Assembly: GCF_000002425.4 (NCBI RefSeq)
Contig: NC_037261.1
Span: 5,728,098-5,792,097, forward strand
Length of the DNA stretch: 64,000 bases
Direction of reading: 5' to 3'
From: Physcomitrium patens
Lineage: Eukaryota > Streptophyta > Bryopsida > Funariales > Funariaceae
A program made the position numbers and the translations under genes. This document shows, piece by piece, positions 3,019 to 64,000 of the stretch. The notes under the pieces are model-generated. The model was not told the DNA's origin. It searched no databases and was given only the letters and a program-made list of their open reading frames with translations. How positions within the stretch are numbered: position 1 is the first letter of the stretch; every line of letters begins with the position of its first letter.

Positions 3019-3520
3019 TGTCATGGACATGCATACTTACTTCAATAAGAAGTTTTAAATAAAAGATAAATGTATGTAGATTTCATATTATCTTATAGCA
3101 AAGCTTTTTAAAAGCTTCATAGATGCATATTTGACTTTATACATGTTTGTAGTTGATTGATAGGTTAGAAACTTAATCAACAAGTTAGACATGTATTGCA
3201 TGTGCTAATAGCTTATAGAATAAACTAACTACATGATGTATATATAAGAAACTTGTCTTCTAAGTTAGACATGTATCAAGGGTCTTATAGAATGTGGCTA
3301 CATAGTTTTTAGTTAGATAGTATGTATGGAAGCAAGAATGAAGTCTTCTTCACTATTTTCAATACTTTTTTAGTCTTTAGTCTTATTTTAAGACTTTCGA
3401 GTCTTCTTATCTTTGGCAATAGCTATTTTAATTTAATATCATATCTTTGAATGATTATCTAGTCTTTTTGAATAACATAAGAGTATATTGATCTTTTAAT
3501 TCTTTGAAATTCATGTCCCT
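3019..3520 (+). mobile_element. Solo or orphan LTR, family A (plus orientation)
   Basis: The segment starts TGTCATGGACATGC and matches the LTRs at 15714-16250 and 28484-29019 along its length. Shared parts include the 'gattgataggttagaaact' segment and the 'tttagtcttattttaagact' segment near the 3' end. No internal region follows it, so it is a solo or orphan LTR. It is inserted against a minus-oriented LTR piece of the same family. No clear target-site duplication was found. Confidence 0.6.
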
Positions 3521-15713: not shown

Positions 15714-16250
15714 TGTCATAAATATATGTATTTATTCCAATAATTACTTATATGATTAGGTAGATGTAGATAAATATTTATTAATTTCATAATGTCTTCT
15801 TGAATAGCTTCTTAGAATCTTCATAGACGTAGTTTTGACTTTATATACGTTTGTAATTGATTGGTAGGTTAGAAACTTTGTCAACAAATTAATCATGTGC
15901 CACATGTGTTGTTAGCTTGTAGAACAAGCTTACAATGTAGTAAATACATAAATAACTTGCCTTATAAGTTAAGACATGTGGCTAACAAAGTCAACACATG
16001 TAAGAGGTCTTATAGAATATTACTATGTAGCTCCTAATTAGAATATATATATGAAAGCAAGAGTGAAGCCTTCTTCATTCTTCTCAATGCATTTCTACTC
16101 TTTAGTCTTATTTTAAGACTTTCTAGTTTTCTTGTCTTTAGCAATAGTCATTTTAGTTTAATACTATATCATCTTTAAATAGCTTTCTAGTTCTTTTGAG
16201 TGACACAAGAATGTATTAAAGATTTCTTTTTTTAAGCTTTATATTCTTAA
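15714..16250 (+). repeat. 5' LTR of the plus-strand family A element
   Basis: About 537 bp, starting TGTCATAAATATATG and ending near 'ttcttaa', just before gag. It is collinear with 28484-29019, 20855-21400 (inverted) and 26646-27188 (inverted). Confidence 0.7.
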
Positions 16251-18037: not shown

Positions 18038-18530
18038 TGTCATCAATATATATCTACTATAATTATTATTTAAGTAATATAAATAGGTAGAAATTTTTAA
18101 AAATAGGTTAATTTCATAATATCTTCTAAAAGAGCTTTCTAGAAGCTTTTTAGATGCTATTTTGACTTTAAATATATTTGTAGTTGATTGATAGGTTAAA
18201 AACTTGGTCAATAAGCTATCTATGTGCCACATGTGTTGGTAGCTTGTAGAAAAAGCTAACTATGTAGCATCCATATAGAAAACTTACCTTGCAAGTTAAG
18301 ATACATGTCTCGTAAAGTCCACATGTTTTTAGAGGTTCCATAGAACGTCACCATATAGATCCAAGTTAGATAATATATATAGAGGTAAGAATGAAGTTTT
18401 CTTCATTTTTTTCAATTCCTTTCTTATTTCTAGTATAGTTTCAAGAGTCTCTAATTTCTTTGTCTTTTAGCAATAGCCATTCCAATTCCTTTTTAATATA
18501 CATATTTCATTATTATTATTATTAATATTT
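18038..18530 (+). mobile_element. Family A LTR inserted in the outer element
   Basis: It begins TGTCATCAATATATATC and carries the family A LTR body ('tagttgattgataggttaaa', 'gccacatgtgttggtagctt'). It interrupts the pol region between the protease and RT remnants. Its 3' end is degenerate, so the right boundary is approximate. Confidence 0.6.
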
Positions 18531-20854: not shown

Positions 20855-21400
20855 TGAAGAACATGAACTAGAAGATGATGCATAAATCTAATAAATCTAT
20901 ATTAAAAGAAAAGTAAAAAATAAAAATAAAGTAGTATGTATATCAAAAAAAAATTGGAATGATTATTGCTAAAAGACAAAGAAATTAGAGATTCTTAAAT
21001 CTAGACCAGAAGTAAGAAAAAAATTGAATAGAATGAAGAGGGCTTCATTCTTGCCTCTATATATATTATCTTATTAAGAGCTATGTGGCAATGTTCTATA
21101 GGACCTCTAATATGTGTTGACTTTGCAAGACACATGCTTTAGTTTACAAGCCAAGTTTTTTATATGTGGGCCATATAATTAGCTTGTTTTTCAAGCTATC
21201 AACATGTATAGCACATAGCCAACTTCTTGACTACATTTTGTAACTTAAAAAGTCAATTATAAACATCTATAAAGTTAAAGAAGTATCTACAAAGCTTCTA
21301 AAAAGCTTCTATAGAAGATATTATGGAATTAATCTACTTTTATCTACTATTATCTAAATCATATAAGTAATTATTGATTAACATGTATATATCCATGACA
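20855..21400 (-). repeat. 3' LTR of the minus-strand family A element
   Basis: About 546 bp, bounded on the inner side by the polypurine tract. On the minus strand it begins TGTCATGGATATATACATG and ends ...CTTCA. Confidence 0.65.
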
Positions 21401-24400: not shown

Positions 24401-26645
24401 AAAATATTTTTACTTAGTTTGAAATACAGTCTTCTATTCATCTCTTTTTTTGATGCATTCCAAATTGTATGCTCCTCGTAGATCTATTTCTATATAGATC
24501 TTAGCTTGATTCAACTGATCAAAAAGTCTAGATATTAAAGATAGTAGATACCTATTTTTGATCATGATCTTATTGAGTCCTTGATAATCAACACACATTC
24601 ACAATGATCTATTTTTTTTTTTCACAAATAAAATTAAGGCTCTTGCTGGAGATTTGAAATAGTATATGAAGTTCTTGGCTTAATTTTTTTCAATATATTC
24701 CTTGAATTTGGCCAATTCATTTTGTAATAAATTGTAGATTAGTCCAAATGGTAGTTATGTTCTTTCTTGAAGGTCAATTGAGTAGTCATAGAGACAACGT
24801 TCTGAAAAAGAATTCATATTTTTTTTTTCAAATACATCTTGAAAATCTTGATATTGGCTTGGAATATCACGTAAAGTCTTTGCACCATTAGAAACAAGGG
24901 TGGCATAAATGACACAAGGTGATCCTTCTTTTGCAACATGCAAGAAAGCTCTTGCACCAACAAACATAGGTTTAATTGTACTAGATTAACTACATTCTTA
25001 GTTATACTTTTAGAAAAGTCAAGAGTACAAGAAATCCAACCTATTCAAGGATTGTATTTTTTTAACCACGATAAACCTAAAATGATTGGATTAGAGGAAG
25101 ATCTTATAATATTAAATACCATAAAGCTATTATGATTATTAGTTATTATTTTTATAGGAAGGATTTTGTAAATAACATCTCCAGAAGACAATGGATGACC
25201 ATCTATGACTTCTACTCAAACAGATTTAGTTTTCCTTACTAAAGATATATTAAGTCTTTTAGCAAATTTTTCATCTAAGAAACTTGTTGTGACTCTTGAA
25301 TCTAATAAGGTAGAGGCTTTGTAATGTATAGGTTCTAAAATCATATTTAATATGAAACAAGGAGAGGGCTTTGAAGAGAGAATAGGACCTTCATTAGGTA
25401 CTGTACAAGGTTCCAACTACATGATTCTTATTGTAGCTGAACAAACTTTTTTTTTAATATATTGTCTTCTTTGACATTTATACACATCATTTTATAATTG
25501 TATCACTTCTTTGGATAATGTTGAGAAATGTATTTAGGTTCTCTATAATATAAGCACAATCTTTTTTAACAATGATGAGTCTTTTCTTGCTCAATAAGAG
25601 GTTTGAAACATATTACATTAATTTTCATATCTTCTACTTCTAAATGTATGTATTAAAGAAGCATTGGTGTTGCCATTGAATTATAGTAACGTTGATGCCG
25701 ACTTGTCCGATTCTCAAATTGAAATTCAAAAAATTGATTGTCACACTTCATAGCAAAGTCAATTGCTTGAGTCAATATTTGAGGATCAGGTAAGTTGAAC
25801 ATCAATTTCTTTATCTCATATTATAATCCATAGAAAAATTGACCAATAAGTGCAACATCATCCCACTTGATATTAGTTATAAGTTATCAAAATTGTGAAA
25901 CATATAATATTATGGATCAATTGCCTTGTCACAAAATATGGATCTTATTGGTTGTAATACAAATTGCATCATGTTGTCCATACATGGATCAAAATTCTAA
26001 TAAAAAAGCCTCTAAATCATCCAATATTAGATCTCATCATTCAAAAAAAGATGAAAACCATGATAATCCTAAACTTGAAAGAAGTGTACTAATAAATCTA
26101 ACTTGTGATCTTAGAATTGGATAGCTTTGGAGTTGAAGTTCAATCACAAGTTGTACTTGATTGATAAATCCTTTAAATTTGGATCTTATACCATCAAACT
26201 TCTTAGGCAAGACAACTTTTGGTTCTTTAGTACCGAAGGGATATTCCATCATAGGAGAAAGGACATGGTTGGATGTAGATGTTGAAGCAGCTCCAATCAT
26301 ATCTATATCTCTACTTCCCACTATTCTTTTTGCTTCTTGTGGTGATAAACAAAGTTGATGCATCGTAAGTATTAATTCCTTCAATTGCTCTTATATTTGT
26401 GCCATTACATTCTTCATTTCAAGAAGCTTTGCCATAATAATACTTAAAAAATAAATATCTAATATTGCTCAAGACAAACAGAAGATGGGACTTGAAAACT
26501 AAAAAGATACTAAGAACAATATTAATTTAAAAGAAGATAATCTCCAAATTTTAATACATTTATGTCTTATCAAGAAAAAAAGATAATCCACTCTTAATCA
26601 AGAAAAGACAAAGCTTTAATATTGTAGTGTACTCTTGTCAATCTA

Positions 26646-27188
26646 TCAAGGACATGAACTAGAAAAAGATGTATAAACTTAAAAATTTTGTATTAAAAAA
26701 AAATCAAAAAATAGCAATAAAATAGTATATATATTAATAGAAAATTGAAATGACTATTGCCAAAAGATAAGAAAACTAAAGACTCTTATATCTAGACTAG
26801 AAGCAAGAAAGGAGTTGAATAGAATGAAGAGTGCTTCATTCTTGCCTCTATGTATATTATCTAACTAGGAGCTACATGGCAATGTTCTATAGGACCTCTA
26901 ATATGTGTTGACTCTGCAAGACACATGCCTTAGCTTGTAACGCAAGTTTTCTACGTAGGCTATATAGTTGGCTTGTTTTTAAAGCTACTAACATGTGTGG
27001 CACATGGCCAACTTGTTGACCATGATTCTAATCTAAGAAATCAATTATCGACACCTATAAAGTCAAAGCAGTGTCTACGAAGCTTGTAGGAAGTTATTAT
27101 AGAAGATATTATGGAATTAACCTATTTTTATCTACTATCATCTAAATCATATAGGTAATTATTGGTTTACATATGTATGTTCATAACA
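26646..27188 (-). repeat. 5' LTR of the minus-strand family A element
   Basis: About 543 bp, beginning TGTTATGAACATAC on the minus strand. It differs from its partner largely by transitions. The pol of the outer plus-strand element resumes immediately to the right. Confidence 0.65.
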
Positions 27189-28483: not shown

Positions 28484-29019
28484 TATTATAGGCATATGTA
28501 TTTATTTTAATAATTACCTTTATGATTAGATAGAAATAGATAAATATTAATTAATTTTATAATATCTTCTTGAGAAGCTTCATAGAAGCTTTTTATATGT
28601 GGTTTTTTTTATATATGTATTTGTAATTGATTAGTAGGTTAGAAAGTTGGTCAACAAATTAACAATATACCACACATGTTGTAGCTTATAGAACAAGCTA
28701 ACTATATAACATATACATAGATAACTTGTCTTATAAGTTAAGATATGTGGCTAACAAAGTCAACTTGTGTTGTTGGTCCTATAGAACATTACTATGTAGC
28801 TTTTAATTAGAGAATATATATGGAGGCAAAAATAAAGCCTTCTTCATTCTTCTCAATACCTTTCTAGTCCTTAGTCTTATTTTAAGACTTTCTAGTCTTC
28901 TTGTCTTTGGCAATAGTCATTTTAGTTTAATACTATATGATCTTTGAGTGACTTTCTAGTTCTTTTGAGTGACATAAGAGTATATTGAAGATTTCTTTCT
29001 TTGAGCTTCATATCCTTGA
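28484..29019 (+). repeat. 3' LTR of the plus-strand family A element
   Basis: About 536 bp, directly after the purine tract GAAGGAGGGA and ending '...ttcatatccttga'. It matches 15714-16250. Confidence 0.7.
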
Positions 29020-29975: not shown

Positions 29976-30393
29976 TGTATTACAGATATCCAATAAAATG
30001 ATTTTAGAAATATTTTTAGAATATTCTATCATGTTCTAGAAGATTTCAAAAGTTTTTTAGAATATTCTAATGAGAAGTTATAGAAGATTCTTAAAATATT
30101 ATGATAGATTCTAAAAAGTTCTAGGAAGATTAAGAAAGTTGTTTGAGAAATTTCCTAGGCTTGCTTCATCTTCAGGCAACATGGGAACTTCTCAAGAAGC
30201 TTCTTAATACCTAATATATATGAGTCAAGGATGAAGGAATCCTCAATCTTGACAATACATTACTGAGAATTCTAACTCATTTCAATGTTGATCTTGTATT
30301 CATTTGATTTAATCAAGTTCTTACTAGTTTTTTTGTTGAAACTCTTCTGTTCAACTTCTTGTTCAATCTTTCATGTAGTATATCCATGATACA
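29976..30393 (+). mobile_element. Old solo LTR of the heat-shock-element family (family D)
   Basis: 418 bp, beginning TGTATTACAG and ending CATGATACA. It is collinear with the 421-bp solo LTR at 57039-57459 read on the opposite strand. Both have a U3 with many alternating GAA/TTC triplets, then a TATATAT box, then a short palindrome-like stretch (ATGAAGGAATCCTCAATC here), then a shared 'cttgtattcat.tgatt' segment and a 'ttcaacttcttg' segment. Flanks TATAT and TAAAT may be a decayed 5-bp target duplication. Confidence 0.65.
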
Positions 30394-49180: not shown

Positions 49181-50834
49181 ATGTTTTCCGACAACTTGAA
49201 GGAGAAGCTGTTAAAGGCAGGTCACCGAGATGACAGCAATCATCCCGCGATGGATGGATCCAGCAGCCTTTCGGGTAATAGCCGTAAAGGAAATATCAAA
49301 AAGAGGTTGTATTCAGAAGCTGAAATTATCTCTAGAATGAAAAAGAAACCTCCGACACGAATTAGCCCAGGACTACGCCGACGGTTTCTTATACGTCTGG
49401 CGATTGCTCTACATTCTTATGGAAGCTCGGCTTCTCGCACCGAGTACTTAATTGACAAGGCAGCAGACAAATTGAACGTCAAAGCGAATATATCAGTGTT
49501 CCCATCCCTGATTCTGCTCTCCTTTCCAGGTATGATTTGCTGGGGAGTCTTCATGTTTTGTAGGCCATTTGCAGATACATGGATGAGTGTAGGCAAGTTC
49601 AATGTACTGATGCTGCTGCTATTCTTGGTTAATCATTTATGTAGGGGTCGACTTACATGATCCTAATCAGAAGGAAATCTATATGATCCAAGTCGACCCA
49701 GACCTTGATGTTGACAAGCTGGGTCGGGCGGATGAGCTTGCAAATGGAGTTGGACAAGAGAGTGCCCCTTTACTACTAGCATATTGGAGATTAAAGGCTA
49801 TTGCAAGTGCTCCCCCTGAATTCGGCAAATGGTGGAAACTATTTGGATTTTCTCTTTCAGGATCCATGTCGTCGCTGCTCTTCTTCAATGGAAGTCTCTG
49901 GGACGCGCTTTTCTCCCTTCTTCTCGGTTTTATAGTCGGTATATTGGACATCCTTGCATCGAGATCAAATCTCTACGGAAGTGTATTTGAGTTCACAGCC
50001 GCTCTCGTGGTCTCCTTTCTTGCTCGGACATTCCAAGTTTATTTCAAGAGTTATGAGCTCTGCTTCTTCGCAATGGCACTATCCGCCCTTGTGCAACTTC
50101 TACCTGGTTTGTCCTTGACCCTCGGTGTGAGCGAGATGGTGGCAAAGTCTCACGTGACTGGGACGTCACGAGTCATGAATGCTCTCTTCTCAGCTCTACA
50201 GCTTGGGTTTGGACTCGCCATGGGTGAGAACCTCGTCGTGTGGGCCCCTAAACCAGTGACTGCTGAATGCGTATCTCCAACGCTTCCTCTCTGGCTCAAG
50301 TTCGTTTGGTTTTGTGCCTACACACTCTCCTCCAACATATTGTTGAATGCGAGGCTAGATCAGTGGCCTGGCATGACCTTGGCATCCTTTGTGGGTTACG
50401 TCGTCTCCGAGGTGACAGGCTTGAAGCTTTCATCAAGTGCTTCTTCCGTCATCTCTGCCTTCGCAGTCGGGATCACCGGCACGACTTACTCTCGGTTCAC
50501 TGGAGACTTACCTCTCGTGATGGTTCTGTCGGGTATTTTGTTGCTTGTTCCAGGCGGCATTGGTGTGCAGGGTGTGACTCGCATGCTAGGAGACGATGTC
50601 CTATCCGGTCTGGGTTTTGTTTTTGATATGGTCATGGTTGGATTATCCATCACACTTGGCTTGTTAATAGCAAAGATTGCTCTCCCATCAGCAATATTCG
50701 GCAGCACTGTTCGAGTTAACACTCACAGTAAGAGTACTTTGCCGAGAGCGCTGGAACATGACCGACCTGAGGATGCCCTTGATTCTTCGAATTCGAATTC
50801 GGATTCGGACAGTGAGGAGGATATGGCTATTTGA
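49181..50834 (+). CDS. ThrE / DUF1212-family multispanning membrane protein, two exons, 512 aa
   Basis: This family includes bacterial threonine/serine exporters and fungal pheromone-regulated PRM10-like proteins. Small amino-acid export is known for bacterial ThrE and only inferred here. Exons: 49181-49529 and 49645-50834, phase 1, with a 115-bp intron after LLSFPG. Residues 1-75 are hydrophilic and basic (KKRLYSEAEIISRMKKKPPT). The DUF1212 signature is LAIALHSYGSSASRTEYLID (about 84-103), then NISVFPSLILLSFPG. The rest holds about nine hydrophobic segments between about 185 and 470. They include LVQLLPGLSLTLGVSEM (about 265-281) and LVPGGIGVQGV (about 417-427), the two conserved loops of the ThrE halves. 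The tail SSNSNSDSDSEEDMAI is acidic. The domain pair (ThrE plus ThrE_2) is complete. The start ATG is first in frame and gives a full-length protein. Confidence 0.88.
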
Positions 50835-52461: not shown

Positions 52462-52506
<45 letters not shown>

Positions 52507-52689
52507 TGTATCCTACTTAGATAATCGATTTAAATTTCTTTTTTAGAAGGTTCCATGGTAGACTCTATCTAAATAAATGCCTTAAACTCTTTCTAGAATG
52601 TTCCATTGTAGTTCCTATCTGGTCCACTAACCTAACTTCAATTCTAGAAACTTCCATGGTTCTAACTATCTATATAATTATCTTATCTA
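52071..52689. other. AT-rich spacer
   Basis: (TA)n at about 52479-52500, followed by short imperfect repeats around 'tagaa.gttccatggta' (52545-52660). No coding potential is evident. Confidence 0.45.
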
Positions 52690-54130
52690 TACCCTGCTAC
52701 AAAGTAACTGTAGAAAGTAGAAATAATATTATAATAATAAGATTTTATTCAAAATAAAATTCTAAATAATTCCAATTAAATATTAAAAATGCTAATCAAG
52801 ATTTAATCAAATTTAAAGAAACCTCAAAGAAATTACAAAAGAAGCATGAAAAAATCCTAAAGAAATTCAAAAGAAGTAATAAAATAAAATCTAAAATATA
52901 TCTTGAAAAAATTCTAATTGAATTTTAATTTAATCCTAATTAAAATCATAGTAGTCTTTACTTAAGTCCTAAGTCAAATCCTAATTAAATACTAAACAAA
53001 TATTAAATCTCAACCAATTCCTAATTCCTAAATTAAATCCTAATCAAATTAACCTAACCTTAGGGCAGTTTAGGACTTCAATATCTATTGATTATATAAT
53101 TGATCTTATTTAAGATTATATATACCTTTCAACAACTAATTTGGTAATAAGCATATAAAATTTGAAGAAGATCTAACTTACCAATTGGAAGATCAAACCT
53201 AGACCTAGGCTTGGGTGTTGGCAAGCCTCCTACTTTAATCTGAATGTTGAACTTCTAGTGCTAATGTTTCCTTATTGAATTATTTAATTGCATCTAAAAT
53301 ATATTTAAACTATGGAAAATCAAGTCTAGTCTCCACAAAAAAAAATTTCACTTCAATCCAATTAACAAATTTCTAAAAATCTTAAAAATACTCACTAACC
53401 TTCAAATTCCAATTTTTGAGACCTCAACCTGTAAAAACCTCTACACACTTCGATCTAACTATCTAATTGAGCTCAAATTTTTTACACACAATAAAAACTA
53501 GAATACCAACATATTTCGCAAAATTCACCTATATACACATTACAAAACTCAAGAAACACTCAATTTTGTAAACATAATTTTATTTTTTAAAATCTAATCC
53601 AATTAAGAATATTATTAATTTTAAAAATCTCCCAAAAATTTAATATTAAGTCAATTGATATAAAATTAATTCTTAAAAATTTCTTTACAAATTTTCTCTC
53701 AAATCCTATTTTTTAATGTACCAAAGGACTGTAGAATCACCATAGATACATAGTTTATACTTGAGAATCTGATTTTGACCTAGGTTGACAACTAGTCCTT
53801 TCTAGGTATCAATATTTGGTAATTTAAGGTAATTTTTACTTAAAACTATTGATATTTTTTTGATAAATATTTCTTTATTAATTACTTATCTCATTTACTT
53901 TAATTTGAGGTATTTATGCCACTACAAAGTAAACAAAAGTTCCTTCTCTAAAAAGCAACATTAAGACTAAACTTTTTATTACCTTCCTATCATTTACCTT
54001 TGTTTTTCTACTACATCTTTCTATTAGGCTCTTCTATAATAACATCCATATTTTTATTTTTTACCATATATTTGTGATATTATATGTCAACAATGTTGTA
54101 ATATGTGAAGTCTTGCTTGAGAATGCTTCG
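52690..54130. repeat. Dispersed repeat family C, copy 1
   Basis: It matches 54131-55840 in order. Shared parts: 'gctaatcaagatttaatcaa' with 'aaagaaacctcaaa', then short TCCTAA-type repeats, then 'ttaacaa..aattt...gcataaaa', then 'gttgacaactagtcctttct', then 'ttctataataacatcca'. Size (about 1.4 kb) and adjacency to gypsy pol suggest an LTR, but no termini are certain. Confidence 0.5.
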
Positions 54131-55840
54131 AGTACTTGGTTGTAGAAGGTAGAATGGAAATTGTAACAACAAAATCCTAATTCTAATAAAATACTAACTA
54201 AACTCTAATAATATCATAACAATGCTAAGCAAGCTTTAATTAAATTCAAAGAAACCTCAAAAGAATTATAAAGAAATAATAAAAAATCTTAAAAAAATAT
54301 TAGAATGATTACAAATATATCTCAAATATATCTCAATTCAATCTTAATTTAATCCTATTTAAAATCCTATTAGACTTCATTTAAATTTTAAGCCAAAAAC
54401 TAACCAAATCTTAAATCCTAAATAAATCCTAATAAAATCCTAAATCCTAAAGCAAACCTTAATCAAATCCTAAATCCTAACCCTAAATCAAATCCTAATC
54501 AAACCCTAAATCCTAAATCAAGCCCAAAATAAACCTTGAATCCTAAACCAAATCCTAACCAAATCCTAAATCAAATCCTAATCAAATCCTAAATCCTACA
54601 TCAAATCCTAATCAAATCCTAAATCCTAAATCAAATCCTAATCAAATCCTAAATTCTAAATCAAATTCTAATGAAATCATAAACTCTAAATAAAATCCAA
54701 ACTAAATCCTAATCCTAAATCAAATCGTAACCAAATCCTAAACTCTAAACCAAATCCTAACCAAATCCTAGTAATTCCTACAACAAATTTAAACCTCAAT
54801 TACTAATTAATGAATTGTTGATCTTAATCTTAAATTTACACACTTCTTAACAATTAACTTGACAAAAAGCATAAAAAATTTGAAAATAATTAGAATTACT
54901 AAATAGACGATAGCCTCAAAAACATGCTTAGGTATTTGTTAGCCTCCTTCTCCGACCTTGATGCCAATCTCTCAGAGCCAATATCTCTCTTTTTTACCAT
55001 TTGATTCATCTTAAAATTCTTATATACATAGAAAAATAAGTCTAATATCTTTACACACAAATTTCACTCTAATCCAATTAGTAGATTGCAAGAAATCTTA
55101 AAAATCCTCGTTAGACCTAAAATTCTATTTTCTGAGACCTTGACCCACTTAAACCTCAATAATCCTCAATTCAATTATTAGATCGAACTAAGATTCATAA
55201 TACATATTAAGCACAATTATAACCATTAATCCACAAAATGTCATCCATAGATCTATTACAAAACTCTTGAAATTGTCCAAAATGTCAACCCTATTTTATT
55301 TCACAAAACCCAAGTCATCCAAAAACAAACTTGACTTTGTAAAGCTCTTACAAAGTCATTACAAATCCAAATTATGCAAAACCAATGCTCATAAAAACCT
55401 TATCTAGTCAGCTATCAAATTCCATTCTTTGATTTGCAAACGAACCTTTGAATTGTCATAGATGTTTGGTTTTGTGCCTCAAGATTTGATTTCAACCCAA
55501 GTTGATAACTAGCCCTCTTTGGATATCAAATTTTATCTTTTTTAGTTAATTTTTTTATTAAAATCAACTCCTAATCTCTTTTTTTAAATGCTCATATTCT
55601 TTATTTTTCTAATCTATTTTATTTTTCCTTATTTATGATCCAACAAAGTAAGTAGAAGTCACTTTTTTAAAAAAGTAACATTACTTCTAAAATTTTTACT
55701 ATCTTCTTATCTTTTATCCATATTTTTTTTACTTTATATTTTTACTTGGTTCTTCTATAATAAGATCCATATTATCTTCTTTCACCATATAGTCATGTTA
55801 CAATACAACAATGATAGTTCTTAAAATTTTTGAAACTTTT
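54131..55840. repeat. Dispersed repeat family C, copy 2 (with expanded minisatellite)
   Basis: A direct repeat of the preceding segment, longer because the TCCTAA-type block has expanded to about 370 bp. It runs directly into a decayed gypsy gag region at about 55.85 kb, compatible with a 5' LTR position. Confidence 0.5.
54411..54775. repeat. Telomere-like 30-bp minisatellite
   Basis: About 11-12 degenerate copies of a 30-bp unit built as CAAATCCTAAT followed by CAAATCCTAAATCCTAAAT. The monomers resemble the plant telomere repeat CCCTAAA with C changed to T. Intact AAACCCTAAA occurs at about 54501-54510. Confidence 0.8.
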
Positions 55841-57038
55841 TTTATTAAGGTTGGAATAAATATAAATTTATATTGTATATTTTAAACTTCTCACTAAGCA
55901 AAAAAAAGCTTGATGTTGACAAAAAGGGTTGTACTTATGTTGTGGAGAAGCTAATTATACTACTCAACATTATTCAAAGAATTAATGTAGTCACAAAATA
56001 AAAAATAATTATCAAAATAGATATTGTATCAAAAAACAATTTTTTCTACTTACAATAGAGAGTATACAGCTGGAATCATGTACAACACATAGTAAAGGTT
56101 CTATTCTCTCATCAAATCCTTCACCTTATTTTATAGTAGATATATGTTTAGGACCTAAAAATCACAAAGTCTTTGTATTATTAGATTCAAGAGCCTCAAC
56201 CTCTTTTATAGATGGAAACTTTGTCAAGAAATAAGAAATACCTTTAGTCTAGAAAACTAAATCCGTACTTATAGAAATAATAGACGGTCATTCATTCTCT
56301 TTTGGAGGCATTACTCATGAGATTTTTCTTTTATATATAGCAATTAAAGATCATAATAGTATAATAATATTTAATGTGATAAGAACTTTTTCTAATTTAA
56401 TTATTTTAGGATTATTGTAGTTAGAAAAATATAACTTTCAAATAAATTAGATTTCTTATAATCTTAATTTTTCTTGTAGTTTAATCCAAAATTCTTGATA
56501 ACAAAGTAGAAATAGATAATTCTAGTATAACCAAGCACTTACTGATAGATATATGAGTTTTTATGTATGTAGCAAAAAAAATATCATCTTTTTTTATATA
56601 TGCCACATCCATTTTTGATGGTAGAAAGACATTAAGTGGTATTCTTAGCTAGTATTAAGATTTTAAAGATATTTTTGAAAAACAAAATATAGATTTTCTT
56701 CCAAATCATCTATTTTATAATTATACAATTGATCTATATGAAAGAACTCAACCACCATTCAGATTGATCTACAACTTATTAAGAAATGAGTCGGTTGTAC
56801 TTAAAGAGTGCATAGATAAGAACTTCGCTAAGTACTTCATATGCTATTCAAAATCTCCAATAGAAGCTCCTATCTTATTTATGAAGAAAAAATATGAATC
56901 TTTGCAGATGTACATAGATTATTGGAGACTTAACAAGATCACCATCAAGAATAAGTATCCCCTATCTTTGATTTCAAGACTTTTTGATCAATTCAATCAA
57001 GCAAAGATCTATAAAAACATAGATCTACAATGAGCATA

Positions 57039-57459
57039 TGTCACAGACACAGAATACAGACTTGATATCTACCAAGAAGTTCAAGAAGAACTGGCAAGAA
57101 CTAGATTAATCAGATGAATACAAGAACAACACCAGAGATGTGAGCTAGAGCTCCAAGAGATGTGTTGTCGAGACTGAAGAATTCTTCAGCCTCGATTCCA
57201 ATATATACTCCTATTTAGGAAGCTTCTCAAGCAACTTCTACCAACTAGGAAGCTTTTAGAAGGTTTCAGAGACTTGCTTCTAGAAGGTTCTAGAAACTTA
57301 TCTCTAGAAGGTTCTAAGGACTATGTCCGTAATATCTTCTACCAACTAAGAAGCTTCTAAAAGGTTCCAGAGACTTGCTTCTAGAAGGTTCTAGAAGCTT
57401 GTCTCTAGAAGGTTCTAGAAACTTGTGTCTAGAAGGTTCTAAGGACTATGTCTCTAACA
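57039..57459 (-). mobile_element. Young solo LTR with heat-shock-element array (family D)
   Basis: 421 bp with TG...CA ends (TGTCACAGACAC... and ...GTCTCTAACA on the plus strand) and a perfect 5-bp target duplication GCATA (57034-57038 and 57460-57464), inserted in the RT of a decayed gypsy. Read on the minus strand, U3 has repeated inverted GAA/TTC triplets at 5-bp spacing: 57278-57295 and 57379-57396 are four-unit arrays (TTCTAGAAGGTTCTAGAA), 57408-57420 has three units, and 57307-57314 and 57432-57439 have two. A TATATA box then follows, and a 16-bp perfect palindrome CTGAAGAATTCTTCAG at 57174-57189. No internal region remains. The superfamily is uncertain, perhaps copia. Confidence 0.8.
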
Positions 57460-58623
57460 GCATATAATCTACTCTGCATCAAAAAAAGAGATGAATAGAA
57501 GACTACTTTTTAAACTAGGTATGGACATTTCAAATATAATATCATGCCTTTTGGACTCACAAATGCATTAGCTGCTTTTGAACATTTCATGAATGATTTT
57601 TTTTTTTGTAAATTTTTTCATGATTTTATTTATTATTTAGACAACATTCTAATCTATTCTAAGAATATCAAAGAATATGAACTTCATATTTGTTGTATGT
57701 TACAAAAACTTAGAGATGTACAATTATATATAAAATTAAAAAAGTGTGTATTTTGTACTACTCAAGTTGATTTCTTAGGATAAATCATTTCCAACAAAAG
57801 ATTAATGATAGATTCTAAAAAAGTCTATATTATCATGGATTAGAAGATTCCAAAAACAATCAAAGATGTGTAATATTTTTTGAGATTTTCCAATTATTAT
57901 CGAATCTTTATTAATTTTTTTTCTCAAATTGCAATTTATCTTACACATCTGATATGTAAAGAAAAACTTAAATAGAGCAAATAATCTAAAACATCTTTAT
58001 AAGCTTTGAATACATTATTTATTTTTTCATTAATTTTTGTATATTGTTAATTTTTTAAGGTGCTCTTTATAGAAACATGTGCATTAAACTTTGCTATTGT
58101 ACTATTTTATTATAAATAGAAGTACATAATAATCTATTTGATAATTTTTAATTTTAAGAAATTTTTAGCAATTTAGATATTATATCAGATAGAAAGAATC
58201 AATTTATATCAAGAATTTAGAGAATCATTTTAAAGATTTTAATGGAAAATATAAAGCTTTCTTTGGCTTTTCATCTTTAAATTGATAGGAAATGAAACAA
58301 ATAAATAAAATTTTAAAGCAGTATTTGAAATTTATTATCAAATATTAACAAGATGATTGAACAATTCTTTTGCCATTTGTAAAGTTTATATACAATAATC
58401 CAATACATTCTTTTAATCAACAAACATCTTTCATGACCAATTATGGTTATCATCTACAACTTGATATTTTTGACTTTTTAAAAGTTGATAATCTTATGGC
58501 AAAAGATTTTGTAAATTATTTTCTAGAATTATATGAAAAAATGAAGGCACAATTAAAAGAAGCTCAAGAACCATAAAAGATCAATATGGATGTTTATAGC
58601 AAGAAACAACTATAATTTAAGGT

Positions 58624-59839
58624 TGTCTTATTTTAAATGCTTATAATATATAAAAATTAGTTTAAACATATTTAATATTTATAAGTCTTAATGTGTATTA
58701 GAATGGTTAATAAATTAATTTAAAGAGAGTAGATATAAGAAACTTTATTTTGAATCTCATCTATTTTTATTATAGTATTTAAATTATATAAAATTTAGAT
58801 GTTTAGTATAGAGCTTTAAGAGAAGGTGGAAGCCTAAGGATGAAAATCTAAACTACTACAAGGCTTATGGAGAGGGATGAAATCAAGGCATGGTTGGATG
58901 AAGGCAAAAAATAAAGATCTTTATTCCTATTAGTTGAAGGCCATGCCTAATGGATATTCAACAAGCTATCTACAACCATAATAAGGATTTCAGCAACTTT
59001 AAAAGGAGAATTTGGAAATCAAAAGTAAATTTTATAAGGTTTAGAATTTGGGCTACAATTTATGTACAAATTTTAGAGGATTTAGAGTTAGGATGATGAA
59101 GTTATAGCCATTTGAAGTTAAGGTATTTTTTTAAGATATACTATTGCTATTTTGATAATACGAGGAGTTTTATGATAGATTTTGGAAATAAGAAGATACA
59201 AATATAAAGACAATTTTAAGATCTACATCTATTTTGAAAGAATTTTTATATTTGGAGTTTGTATGAAGAAGTTATAAAGCATTGAAGAGAGCATATATAA
59301 TTCAAAGGTAGTAAGTGAGTTGTATTATTGATAGTAATGGTATGAGCCATATCTTAAGTTTTCGAGTGAATATTTGGCTCAAAAGTTTTAGAAGTGTATA
59401 TTATTAGGTTAAAAAGCTATATATCAAAGTTTTATGATATTTAAATACTTATTTTGTGAGATATAAAGACATTTATACATAAGTGTATGTAAGTAGGGAT
59501 TTGAAGCTATTATTAGGATTTTGGCAATATTTCAAGATTTATAATGGATTTGTAGTTGAATTTTTTTGTATTAATTTTTAAAAGTACATCAATACTTCAT
59601 GTAAAATTTGGATTTATTTGAATGGTCCAATTGTGAGATATGAGTTGTTGAAATTTGGAAAAAATTCACCTTAAGGATATTAAAGATTTTGTAATATTTT
59701 TATCACATATTTGATGATCTTTGATACTTAAGGCTTATGTATTGATGTGATTGCTCCTATAGGGATAATTTTATATATAAACTTGATTTTTTCTTTATCT
59801 AAAGGCTTGATTGAATATTTAATAACAACTATAAGTCCA
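58624..59839 (+). mobile_element. LTR of gypsy family B
   Basis: About 1.2 kb, beginning TGTCTTATTTTAAATGC and ending ...TAAGTCCA. It matches 60217-61212 and 19110-20093 throughout. It interrupts the integrase/chromodomain part of the surrounding chromovirus. The word ACAACTATAA occurs near both of its ends. Confidence 0.65.
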
Positions 59840-60216
59840 TTCATTGGCACAGAAATGATATTTGTGAACAAATATGGAAGCTAGTAAAAAATCTTAGAAA
59901 TATAATTAAGAAGGTTGAAACTTTTTATCAATAATATCCATCAAAATCAAGGTGAAGAATAAAAAATCTTTGCTATAAAAGAAACAAGTTTTAGAGAAGA
60001 TAGCATTTCACATTTTACTCTTTTTTGTAACTTTTGCATATTTGTGATACTAAGAAGATGGAGAACTAACAACTAGTAGCTTCAATTGAAGAATTATTAC
60101 TTATTGACTTATTGGATGAGACATTCCAATTATTACAATGTTCAAGATGATGTAATTAAGATAAAGATTCTAAAGAACAACATATCTTTCTTCAAATAGA
60201 TGATAAGTCACAATGT

Positions 60217-61212
60217 TGTCATACTATAATTATTTAGTTAAATTTTACATATTATAAATAATTATTTAATTATATATTATTTATTTATAGTATATTTTTA
60301 TATGAAGAAGATGAAGAAGAATAGCACTTGGTATATATTAGAAGATGTTCAGATACAAAGGATGTGAATATCATATTTTAATTATTTATAGTATATAAAA
60401 TTTAACTAAAATATATAATATATTTATAAATATCAATATATTAGAGTGATTAGTAGGTTAATTTTAAAAAAATTAATGTAAGAAACTTTATTTTGATATT
60501 TGTCTATTTCAATTATATTATTTAAATTATATAAGATTTAGATATTTAATATAAAATTTAAAGAAAAGATTGGAGCTCAAAGATAAAGATCTAAACTTCT
60601 CAGAAACTTATTTAAAAGGATAAAAATAAGGTATGGATGGATGAAGATAAGGAGTGAAGATCTTTATTTGTATTGATCAAAAGTCATATCCAATATGCTC
60701 TAGAGAAGTTGTCTCCAACTATAACAAGGATTTTGGCAACTTCAAAAGGAACATTTAAAAATCTAAAGTAAAGATTATAAGGTTTAAGATTTGGATTATA
60801 ATTTGTGTACAAATTTTAGAAGGTTTGGAATTAGGATGATGGTATTTTAGCTATTCGAAATTAAGATGTCTTTTTAAGATATAGTAGTGCTCTTTTGAAG
60901 ATATTAGGAGTTGTACAACTTTTGAAGATTGAAAGATGCGATTGCAAGGGTGATTTCAAGATCTATATCTTTTATAAAAGAATTATTATATTTGGAATTT
61001 GTATAAAAGAATTATAGAGCTTTGAAGATAACACATGTGATTTGAATATAGTAAGTGAGGTAGTTTATTTATAATAATGGTTGGAATTATATCTTAAGTT
61101 TTTGGACAAATTTTTGGCTCAGAATTTTTATATATACAAATTTTGTATATATAAACTTAATGCTTTTTTATCTTAAGATTTGATTGAAAAATTAGAGATA
61201 ATTAGAAGCCCA
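60217..61212 (+). repeat. 5' LTR of the family B element
   Basis: About 1 kb, directly upstream of gag. It is homologous to the two other family B LTR copies in this window. Confidence 0.6.
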
Positions 61213-64000
61213 ATGCTTTTTTAAGGTTAAGTCTCTTTATTCTAATATATTTTTGCTTACATTAAGAAAGCCTAAAGTCACTAAATTTTTTAACAAGTCA
61301 GGATGGAAGAAAAAATTTCAATGTTTACATTATTAGATGGAATATGTATCTATGATTTATTTAGTACCTTTGCTCAATTTATGGAAGAGAGACAACAAGT
61401 GCATGAGGAAGATAGAAACACCATTAAAGCTTTACAAGTAGTCATGGATAAGATTGAGAGGTTTGATGGGAGAGACATCACTAAGTTCCTAAAGATTTAT
61501 ACATATAAAATGGAGGAGCATTAAGTTTCAAAAATGAAGGTGATTACTACCTTCGATTTGGCAATAATACTAGAAATCAGAGAAAAGATGTAAGAATTGC
61601 ATATTGAAGCTATATTATTGAACATGATGGTGGAGATTCATTCAAGAGGATTATATGAAGAGATATTAAAGATAGCTATTGATATAAAGTTGATTTAAAG
61701 TTATGGCTTGGAGATTGAAGAAATGGTGAATACCAAGTGTAAGATTGTGGCAAAGAAGGTGAAGCTAATTGCAGCACAACAGCTGTTGAGTATGAGGATC
61801 ATATCAAAAAGGCTAAAAAAGAGCTTAGACTAAAGAAGACAAGAAAGATTGGATATAATTTTATAAAAGAGGCATTGACAAAGCTAAAAATTGAAGAGAG
61901 TGAATTTTTGAAAGAACTAGAAAAAAAAATTCCAAAAAATGATCTTGACATATAGTAAGGCTTTTGTCTCTTTACTAGATGAGATTGGATGTATTAGTAC
62001 AAAGGTTGTTGCACCAATGGTCATTTTTATTATTCCACATGTACCTTAGAATTTAAAAATTATTCATGTACTAAAAGCCTTGCTATCTAAATTGATAAGA
62101 TAATTGAAAAAAAAGATGCAAATAAAAATACTTAAACTATTAATATGAAGGATAGAGCCAATCTCTATATTCCAAAATCTAATGGCACCTCAAAAGGTGA
62201 TTAAGATTGTAAAAAATAAAATTCTTTAAGAATTGATCAAGATCATATAAGATTTAAAAGTAGAAATGATTGAATTGAAGAAATCTTAGATGGCAAGCTC
62301 ATCAAAGGCAATTATAGAGTCAAAATAATTTTTAGAAAGAAATATGCAATGCAACAATCCAAATAACAAGCATAGTGAGTATGATAGTTACAAGATTGCA
62401 ATCAAGGATGGTACTGTATATTTCAAGGAAGATAGGATAAGACTCATAAGATCACATGAGCTTTTGAAGACTAATTTTGAAAAGGATGGCATGAAAAATT
62501 TAGTGGAAAAGCAAATATCAAAGAGTAATGTCATACGAGAAAAAAGAGTTGAATCTTACTCTATTAGAATTGAACAAAAAGTAGTTAAGGCTAATTCTTT
62601 ATCAATTATAGGAATCATGATCAAGAAAGCTGAAGCTATCTAAAAAATGATTAGATAGAATGATTCAATTGATGCTATTAGCATTAAAGTATTTTTATGT
62701 AGGAATAAACATAGTGATGATTTTTATGATACTATGGTTGAGGAAAAAAGAAGTAGAACTATTCATGAAGAGTATGTTATTGAGTCTGAAAATATAAAGA
62801 GGTCTCTAAGTAATAAAGAAGCTTCTTAGGAATAAAGAAACCTCTAATGAGCAAAAATAAAAAAATATCTTCTTCTACTCATCTTAGTGGTATATTATTA
62901 CCAAAAAAGTAATAAGAGAAGGACTAAGAGAAGGAAAAAGATGACACAAGAAAATCTAAAGGTATAAATCTTGCTTGTAAGCTTCAATCTGACATTGAAA
63001 TATCTATAAATATAAAAAGTATTTTAGAGGAAAAGATTTTTGATGCAAAAAATTGAATTTACACTAAAAGAGGCTCTTGGTATAGCCAAAAAGGATTTCC
63101 ATGATTTGTTCATCAATGTAATAAAGAAGAAGAGACAAATGACAACTAAAGCTATTATAGTAGAAGCATTGAGTACTTAAAAAACTATGTATGAAGAAGA
63201 AGAAATAATGTAGGTATTTACATAATTTGTAATTCCAAAAACTCGAAATAAGAGTGATATGGAGGATGAAGCTTCATTTAAACATATTAAATCTATAAAA
63301 GAACATCAAATAGAATGCTTATCTATAAGATCTATAAAAATAAAGAAAAATTTACAAGAAGCATGTTTAAAAATTTGCAATAAATGTCATGATGATAGAA
63401 TAAGAAGCAATAGCTATTCAATTCTTTATTGACCTAAAGCTACTACAGAGTCATATATGAAGTTAGAAGACTCTAAAGATCCAATTTTGGCCTTAGTTGA
63501 TCATGGATCTAAAATCAACATCATATCAAGGTAGATATATGAAAAAAATAAGTGGCCAAATGATATCAACTATGGTTGGATAAATATAGTTATATCAACC
63601 AATAAGATAATTTATATAGAGCTTATCTAGCTATAAGGATTAAGATTGAAGATGTGGAAGTTGAAAAAAAACTTTTTGTGCAAAACTTTATTATATATCT
63701 AGTAATACTTGATCAATCCTATATTACAAATTCTAAAATAAAGATTAGAATCTTGGATAATGGTTCATATTATGCAAAGATTTGTAGTAGAATGGAAGAA
63801 AAATTGTCAATTTATTACTATGAAACCTATTCATCAAAGGCATAGAGAACAACCAAGGAGGATGTATTTGGAGCTTGAAAAATAACTTTGTGTATTTTTA
63901 GAGAGCATCCTTGTAGAATGGAGATATATGAGTGCAAATGAATAATTTATAAACTCTAATATAGATAATATAAGTTTTGGATTATTAAACTTGACTAATA
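60217..64000 (+). mobile_element. Gypsy family B element, 5' part (LTR, gag, protease), runs off the window
   Basis: 5' LTR 60217-61212 (TGTCATACTATAATT... to ...AGAAGCCCA). Gag starts at ATG 61303 and has IERFDGRDITKFLKIYTYKM (about residues 51-70), a retrotransposon gag helix block; it then breaks at stops but continues as pieces to about 62.9 kb. The aspartic protease remnant is about 63.48-63.53 kb: ILALVDHGSKINIIS, where the catalytic D-S/T-G reads DHG. RT and beyond are outside the window. Stop codons show it is inactive, although gag is less decayed than in the family A elements. Confidence 0.7.

Follow-up and report, generated by a model that had tools for sequence, protein, structure and literature searches.

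A solo LTR with arrayed heat-shock elements and its parent family, a candidate heat-driven chromodomain Ty3 retrotransposon of Physcomitrium patens

The 64,000-nucleotide stretch of the Physcomitrium patens genome analysed here (the window, from contig NC_037261.1) contains a solo long terminal repeat (LTR) whose U3 region carries arrays of perfect heat-shock elements (HSEs), by sequence canonical sites of heat-shock factors (HSFs). Judging from its full-length relatives, this LTR was left by a Tcn1-like, chromodomain-bearing Ty3/gypsy family of the moss with predicted self-priming, called here the HSE-LTR family; a dominant related Ty3 family of the same genome is called the sister family. 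The reading favored here, with a probability of about two in three, is that the U3 of the HSE-LTR family is an HSF-driven heat promoter, like that of the Arabidopsis element ONSEN in mechanism, by which the family rides the heat response of its host. Heat or other proteotoxic stress would lead moss HSF trimers to bind the LTR arrays, of which there are up to five just upstream of the TATA box; the bound HSFs would drive transcription from a start lying about 32 nt past the TATA box; and the first 11 bases of the RNA, from the start nucleotide on, would then prime reverse transcription.

With a run defined as perfect alternating TTC/GAA units at 5-bp steps, the window LTR contains HSE runs of four units (two), three units (one) and two units (five) (Table 1), and the scan bore out an earlier sequence-only reading that had placed two four-unit arrays, with three- and two-unit arrays beside them, in U3 as canonical HSF sites. 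When the LTR was dinucleotide-shuffled 2,000 times, no shuffle contained four units, and the longest run, of three units, occurred in 27; in the 64-kb window there are no 4-unit runs besides the two in the solo LTR. The order of HSE arrays, TATA box and palindrome given in that reading is also correct on the LTR's own strand, the minus strand, where R and U5 follow, since a full-length relative whose LTRs are oriented like the window copy (L009) codes on the minus strand. The arrays had further been called dense; they are real, but the window copy is not their densest form, as 11 of 12 other LTRs of the 421-bp type have five arrays (18-19 units) and the remaining one, L004, has the same three as the window copy. 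These 12 distinct copies were not chosen blind: L002-L008 were selected for resembling the window LTR, L009-L011 for forming LTR pairs, with L003 and L010_3, which are one sequence, counted once.

A 41-mer of the published P. patens tandem repeat Pp16_64 (PMC6302065) has 41 exact matches in the genome and none in reversed form, on which ground the window is assigned to this moss. Searching the genome (470.4 Mb in 101 contigs) with the LTR gave 3,088 candidates; the 40 scored (window copy included) are 96-100% identical and near full length. Full-length parents were located through LTR pairs about 5.74 kb apart. The nearest, L009 (6,162 bp, LTRs 98.6% alike, duplication CCTAC), L010 (6,163 bp, duplication AAATC) and L011 (6,161 bp, without a perfect duplication), have 18-19 HSE units per LTR and 4-unit arrays in both LTRs. 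The expectation that full-length parents keep the arrays was thus confirmed by these three elements and by the junction sample described below, and the absence of arrays from full-length relatives, which the sequence-only reading had named as a refutation, was not found. Open frames of L009 match Ty3-type gag, reverse transcriptase (RT), RNase H, integrase H2C2 and rve, a Tf2-1-like SH3 domain (E 1.6e-20) and, after the integrase, a chromodomain (PF00385, E 2.3e-16); two of the six L009 frames searched gave no Pfam match. RLC5, a centromeric copia family, had been considered for the even spread of matches over contigs and was dropped, the parents being Ty3 elements with a chromodomain. A shorter relative was also seen (L041, 425-4824), with LTR starts about 4.1 kb apart and five 4-unit arrays in one LTR; similar spacing recurs on contig C1, and a shortened derivative therefore seems to exist in several copies.

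The arrays were also evaluated in a sample drawn independently of them. Junctions between the 5' LTR and the primer-binding site (PBS) were found with an HSE-free 19-mer, the matches listed covering the first 2.11 Mb of contig C1. Of the 12 HSE-LTR family copies listed (one of them the L040 copy), all 12 have one or more 4-unit arrays on the LTR side and none has one on the internal side, whereas none of 21 sister-family junctions in the same stretch of C1 had a 4-unit array (Fisher p 3e-9). Since these junctions are exact matches, they are probably younger copies. Genome-wide, with up to 2 mismatches allowed, the HSE-LTR family has 2,952 such junctions (reversed control 3); 6,724 (control 0) belong to the sister family.

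The exact 18-mer TTCTAGAAGGTTCTAGAA occurs 5,680 times in the genome (0 times reversed, about 0.04 expected from base composition) and makes up 70% of the sites of the T-type 4-unit pattern TTCnnGAAnnTTCnnGAA, which is found in 8,121 places (reversed control 114); the G-type pattern GAAnnTTCnnGAAnnTTC is found in 11,443 (reversed control 81), the two pattern counts overlapping at arrays of five units. In a small sample of 20 stretches of 10 kb (200 kb), all six runs of at least four units lie in HSE-LTR family LTRs, all in L017. Together with the 18-mer that the sites share, this sample suggests that most 4-unit sites of the genome lie in LTRs of this family. By eye, further array types recur at element-length spacing in the G-type coordinate list.

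A duplicated block in U3 with 101-bp spacing (repeat family D1), and a spacing of array matches suggesting that array number varies by such duplications, would fit a different origin, in which tandem duplication of the AT-rich palindromic unit TTCTAGAA produced the arrays incidentally, without any role for a transcription factor. That account is very improbable in view of the exact 5-bp phase held across 4-5 units, the thousands of genomic sites against about a hundred in reversed controls, the retention of arrays where sublineages have diverged elsewhere in U3, their absence from the sister-family LTRs examined and a unit spelling that is also a host heat-promoter motif.

The sister family provides the comparison closest at hand. 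Its copy L020 (LTRs 99.1% alike) is 75% identical to the HSE-LTR family in RT protein and 70% in integrase, and its LTR has two 2-unit HSE sites and no run of three or more units. In matches of at least 250 bp, transversions per site are 0.007-0.041 within the HSE-LTR family and 0.135-0.158 between the families. Of the 200-kb sample, 8.6 kb is covered by the HSE-LTR family, about three quarters of it in L017, and 40.1 kb by the sister family, 13.2 kb of this in L020 and L030, the source of the sister-family queries. By its abundance the sister family is probably the published RLG1, which is consistent with the lack of arrays in the copies examined. RLG1, the most abundant family of the genome, was accordingly set aside as a name for the HSE-LTR family, which has fewer junctions and covers less of the sample than the sister family, although annotated RLG1 might lump both. 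RLG2 fits poorly as well, with 529 complete copies reported (PMC7466625) against 2,952 junctions, "complete" perhaps being a stricter count. One of the names RLG1, RLG2 and RLG3 probably covers the HSE-LTR family; RLG3 and RLG2 are candidates, as is a subset of annotated RLG1.

For the HSE-LTR family, comparison of LTR and PBS supports a self-priming mode like that of Tf1/sushi elements, in which the 5' end of the RNA would prime its reverse transcription. Among ten family copies with a readable junction, five of them picked by a pattern containing the PBS, nine have a PBS of 11-12 nt, 2 nt after the 5' LTR, whose exact complement occurs in the LTR, 31-32 nt past the TATA box. The complementarity is missing in the tenth, L017 (377-774), where R has changed, with a different palindrome and the match to the PBS lost; its two 4-unit arrays are retained. 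In the sister family, L020 has a different 11-mer that matches its own PBS and L030 has none (one of two), and it is this change on both sides, in LTR and PBS, that argues for self-priming. Transcription should then start at the complementary stretch. As the window copy lacks a PBS, its start of R is placed from the full-length relatives. The palindrome spans this predicted RNA start, with one arm in U3, and perhaps forms a hairpin near the RNA 3' end. A tRNA-iMet PBS was considered as an alternative: TATCAGAGC, found about 23-27 nt after the 5' LTR in both families (L009, L040 and L042; L020), resembles the central part of the tRNA-iMet binding site of plants, but it is offset and lacks the TGG start, and the self-complementary stretch fits better. 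TATCAGAGC is perhaps the relic of an older tRNA primer. Self-priming is a known trait of the Tcn1 clade, since it is predicted for the majority of its plant elements, in mosses and club-mosses (PMC6317226).

L040 and L042 are more distant full-length relatives whose LTRs share about 72% identity with the L009 type. When they are aligned with that type, HSE core positions are the same in 81-82%, spacers in 68-75% and other U3 positions in 61-62% (one-sided Fisher p 0.002-0.006, core versus other U3); because the aligned U3 is repetitive and just one divergence is compared, the evidence for constraint on the HSE cores is suggestive only. The 252-bp U3 has no CG in the LTRs of five 421-bp relatives examined, where 9-10 are expected, and one in the window copy. 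CHG sites number 1-2 in U3 of the same five relatives, and 7-10, with 2-3 CG, in the whole 421-bp LTR. In the internal regions of L009 and L010 CG stands at 0.76-0.78 of expectation, and in their first 500 bp at 0.32-0.40. ONSEN copies 1 and 2 are described, in a figure legend of PMC3907296, as having LTRs without CG and CHG sites; given the 7-10 CHG of the whole LTR, the likeness is only partial.

Several of these observations weigh against the favored reading. Conservation is higher past the TATA box (85-88%) than in the HSE cores; units are fewer in the distant sublineages (8-10 in L040, 4 in L042), whose U3 has 2 CG each against about 10 expected; and loss of CG from U3 can also follow from past methylation and decay. 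The main weakness lies in the published record: if the HSE-LTR family is RLG3 or falls within RLG1, that record shows no induction of the predicted kind. RLG1 is reported to be repressed by heat, RLG2 to be induced by heat and abscisic acid (ABA) and to rise in gametophores, and RLG3 expression was not detected in a data set with heat stress among its conditions (PMC7466625).

The same record bears on the possibility, considered unlikely though worth keeping in view, that the arrays are HSF sites by sequence which worked once, in a burst now over, and belong to a family kept epigenetically silent in the moss of today. The lack of RLG3 expression would fit it if RLG3 is the HSE-LTR family, as do the ages of the five dated intact relatives (approximately 0.8 My for L009, 1.2 for L010, 1.9 for L011, 2.5 for L040 and 1.8 for L042, from their LTR pairs) and the nesting of the window copy in a decayed element. 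It sits poorly with the 15 of 125 scored RT matches that lie in frames of more than 1,000 aa without internal stop, with the five arrays kept in 11 of 12 other LTRs, and with the reported polymorphism of RLG3 insertions, 67 of them across three accessions (PMC7466625), the match of that name to the HSE-LTR family being unproven. The heat and ABA induction of RLG2, with its rise in gametophores, is the ground for supposing instead that the LTR responds mainly to some other cue, ABA or development, with HSFs as one input. This is given the least credence of all; little speaks against it directly, the HSE units being the repeated feature seen in U3, where no search was aimed at motifs of other factors.

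The host side is compatible with the favored HSF-driven heat promoter. Eight matches to the HSF DNA-binding domain were found in the genome; none of these loci (L032-L039) has a 4-unit array, and two have one 3-unit run each. In a P. patens gene module that heat activates rapidly, 49 of the top 100 genes are reported to have the motif GAAGSYTCTAGA, which was matched to HSFA1E (PMC7073223). HSE units of the LTR are spelled GAAGGTTCTAGA and GAAGCTTCTAGA, and the unit spelling GAAG[GC]TTCTAGA fits GAAGSYTCTAGA; either the LTR would have converged on a spelling preferred by moss HSFs or some heat-activated promoters would contain the LTR. A bolder extension, rated as quite doubtful, is that the family has placed most of the high-affinity HSEs of the genome in its LTRs, which would be both an HSF sink shaping the heat response and a supply of ready-made heat promoters, maybe including part of the published moss motif. 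On heat shock the HSF pool would then be divided between host genes and the element.

Comparison with ONSEN (ATCOPIA78), also drawn in the sequence-only reading, holds for promoter anatomy but not for superfamily. Both have a canonical 4-unit HSE in an LTR poor in CG, and the HSFA2-driven heat induction of ONSEN is the analogue proposed for the HSE-LTR family (PMC3907296, PMC5059998). The 4P array is described as the strongest class of heat-responsive element (HRE), bound by two HSFA2 trimers (PMC5059998), and a cluster of this type lies upstream of the promoter core in the window LTR and its relatives. ONSEN is a Ty1/copia element, whereas the domains of L009 are those of a Ty3 chromovirus, here with thousands of junctions, up to five arrays per LTR and predicted self-priming. 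TERESTRA, COPIA37 and ROMANIAT5 of Brassicaceae are likewise heat-responsive LTR elements, in which HREs arose repeatedly, but they are copia elements with clusters of at most six nGAAn motifs (PMC5059998). PHRE1 and PHRE2 of moso bamboo are Ty3/gypsy elements studied for heat response; their LTRs interact with TCP, DOF and GATA factors, and the available text is without the terms HSE and nGAAn (PMC8656106). Tcn1-clade chromoviruses of mosses and club-mosses share the chromodomain integrase and, in the majority, predicted self-priming (PMC6317226), but HSE arrays are not mentioned in the available text on them (PMC6317226, PMC2864245), and the HSE-LTR family is likened to them by domains and PBS. 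In Selaginella SM-Tcn1 neither tRNA priming nor self-priming is reported as evident (PMC2864245). RLG1, RLG2 and RLG3 are Ty3 families of the same species; RLG1, probably the sister family, differs in having no arrays in the copies examined.

No description of HSE arrays in a moss LTR was found in the open full-text literature, as judged by titles and abstract openings of part of the matches, subscription journals lying mostly outside it. The kind (ONSEN; PMC3907296, PMC5059998) and the clade (Tcn1) are known, while the two in combination, and on this scale, look new. The best-known HSF-driven retrotransposons are copia elements of low copy number in Arabidopsis relatives, and the moss case would add an abundant Ty3 chromovirus family with denser arrays in many copies. 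A close sister family free of arrays in the same genome is a natural control, and together with a haploid plant amenable to easy gene targeting it makes testable whether HSE arrays alone set the heat response of a retrotransposon. The published contrast between heat-induced and heat-repressed P. patens families (PMC7466625) would also be informed.

Table 1. Features of the solo LTR and its insertion site (positions in the window)
Feature	Position	Strand	Basis
Solo LTR, 421 bp, TG...CA ends	57039..57459	-	sequence and genome matches
Target-site duplication GCATA, left	57034..57038	.	sequence
Target-site duplication GCATA, right	57460..57464	.	sequence
4-unit HSE array TTCTAGAAGGTTCTAGAA	57379..57396	.	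run scan
4-unit HSE array TTCTAGAAGGTTCTAGAA	57278..57295	.	run scan
3-unit HSE array	57408..57420	.	run scan
2-unit HSE	57432..57439	.	run scan
2-unit HSE	57350..57357	.	run scan; most compared relatives have a further 4-unit array here
2-unit HSE	57307..57314	.	run scan
2-unit HSE, closest to TATA box	57219..57226	.	run scan
TATA box	57202..57207	-	sequence; alignment of 13 LTR rows
Palindrome across predicted U3/R border	57168..57195	.	inverted-repeat pair I5; LTR alignment
Predicted start of R (RNA 5' end), 11-nt complement of PBS in full-length relatives, 32 nt downstream of TATA box	57165..57175	-	
2-unit HSE-like site, downstream of TATA box (R/U5)	57080..57087	.	run scan
Reverse-transcriptase gene of older Ty3 element, interrupted by LTR	56854..58098	+	matches 56854-57039 and 57460-58098

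The insertion itself is as the sequence-only reading described it, a solo LTR flanked by a perfect GCATA duplication. The RT protein match breaks off at the left LTR border and picks up again at the right one at about the same residue (62/61), and LTR-free homologues (L014, L019, L020, L021 and L030 among others) align on both sides with a few-base overlap, as expected from target duplication; the solo LTR is therefore nested in an older Ty3 element, which is AT-rich and decayed and probably belongs to the sister family. The window LTR has been called young. It is younger than the element in which it sits, but the term is only relative, its 6 private substitutions in 421 bp giving a rough age of about 1.6 My at a rate of 9e-9 (rate from PMC7466625). 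Limited C-to-T decay is half true, three of the six being C>T/G>A and the other three not. The LTR promoter faces left; an open reading frame in that direction (49611-50834, plus strand) lies about 6 kb away with its 3' end toward the LTR, which thus is not its promoter. Sitting in a dead element, the window copy can at most be a promoter fragment.

Other traces of these families and further repeats were noted in the window. Relic stretches at 30016-30332, 71-85% identical to HSE-LTR family LTRs, are a second, decayed trace of that family, and decayed sister-family LTRs, 71-78% identical to that of L020, lie at 3064-3427, 15740-16159, 18058-18508, 20904-21374, 26634-27162 and 28510-28928. A tRNA scan of the window found none. 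Around the interrupted RT gene the GC skew is mirror-imaged, C-rich at 52500-56000 (to -0.66) and G-rich at 58500-64000 (to +0.55), and the C-rich left part includes a direct repeat (52969-54095 and 54686-55813, 66% alike). Two 3-unit HSE runs 51 bp apart (52591-52654), upstream of a TATA-like stretch and without a match to the compared LTRs, possibly belong to a further HSE-bearing repeat family.
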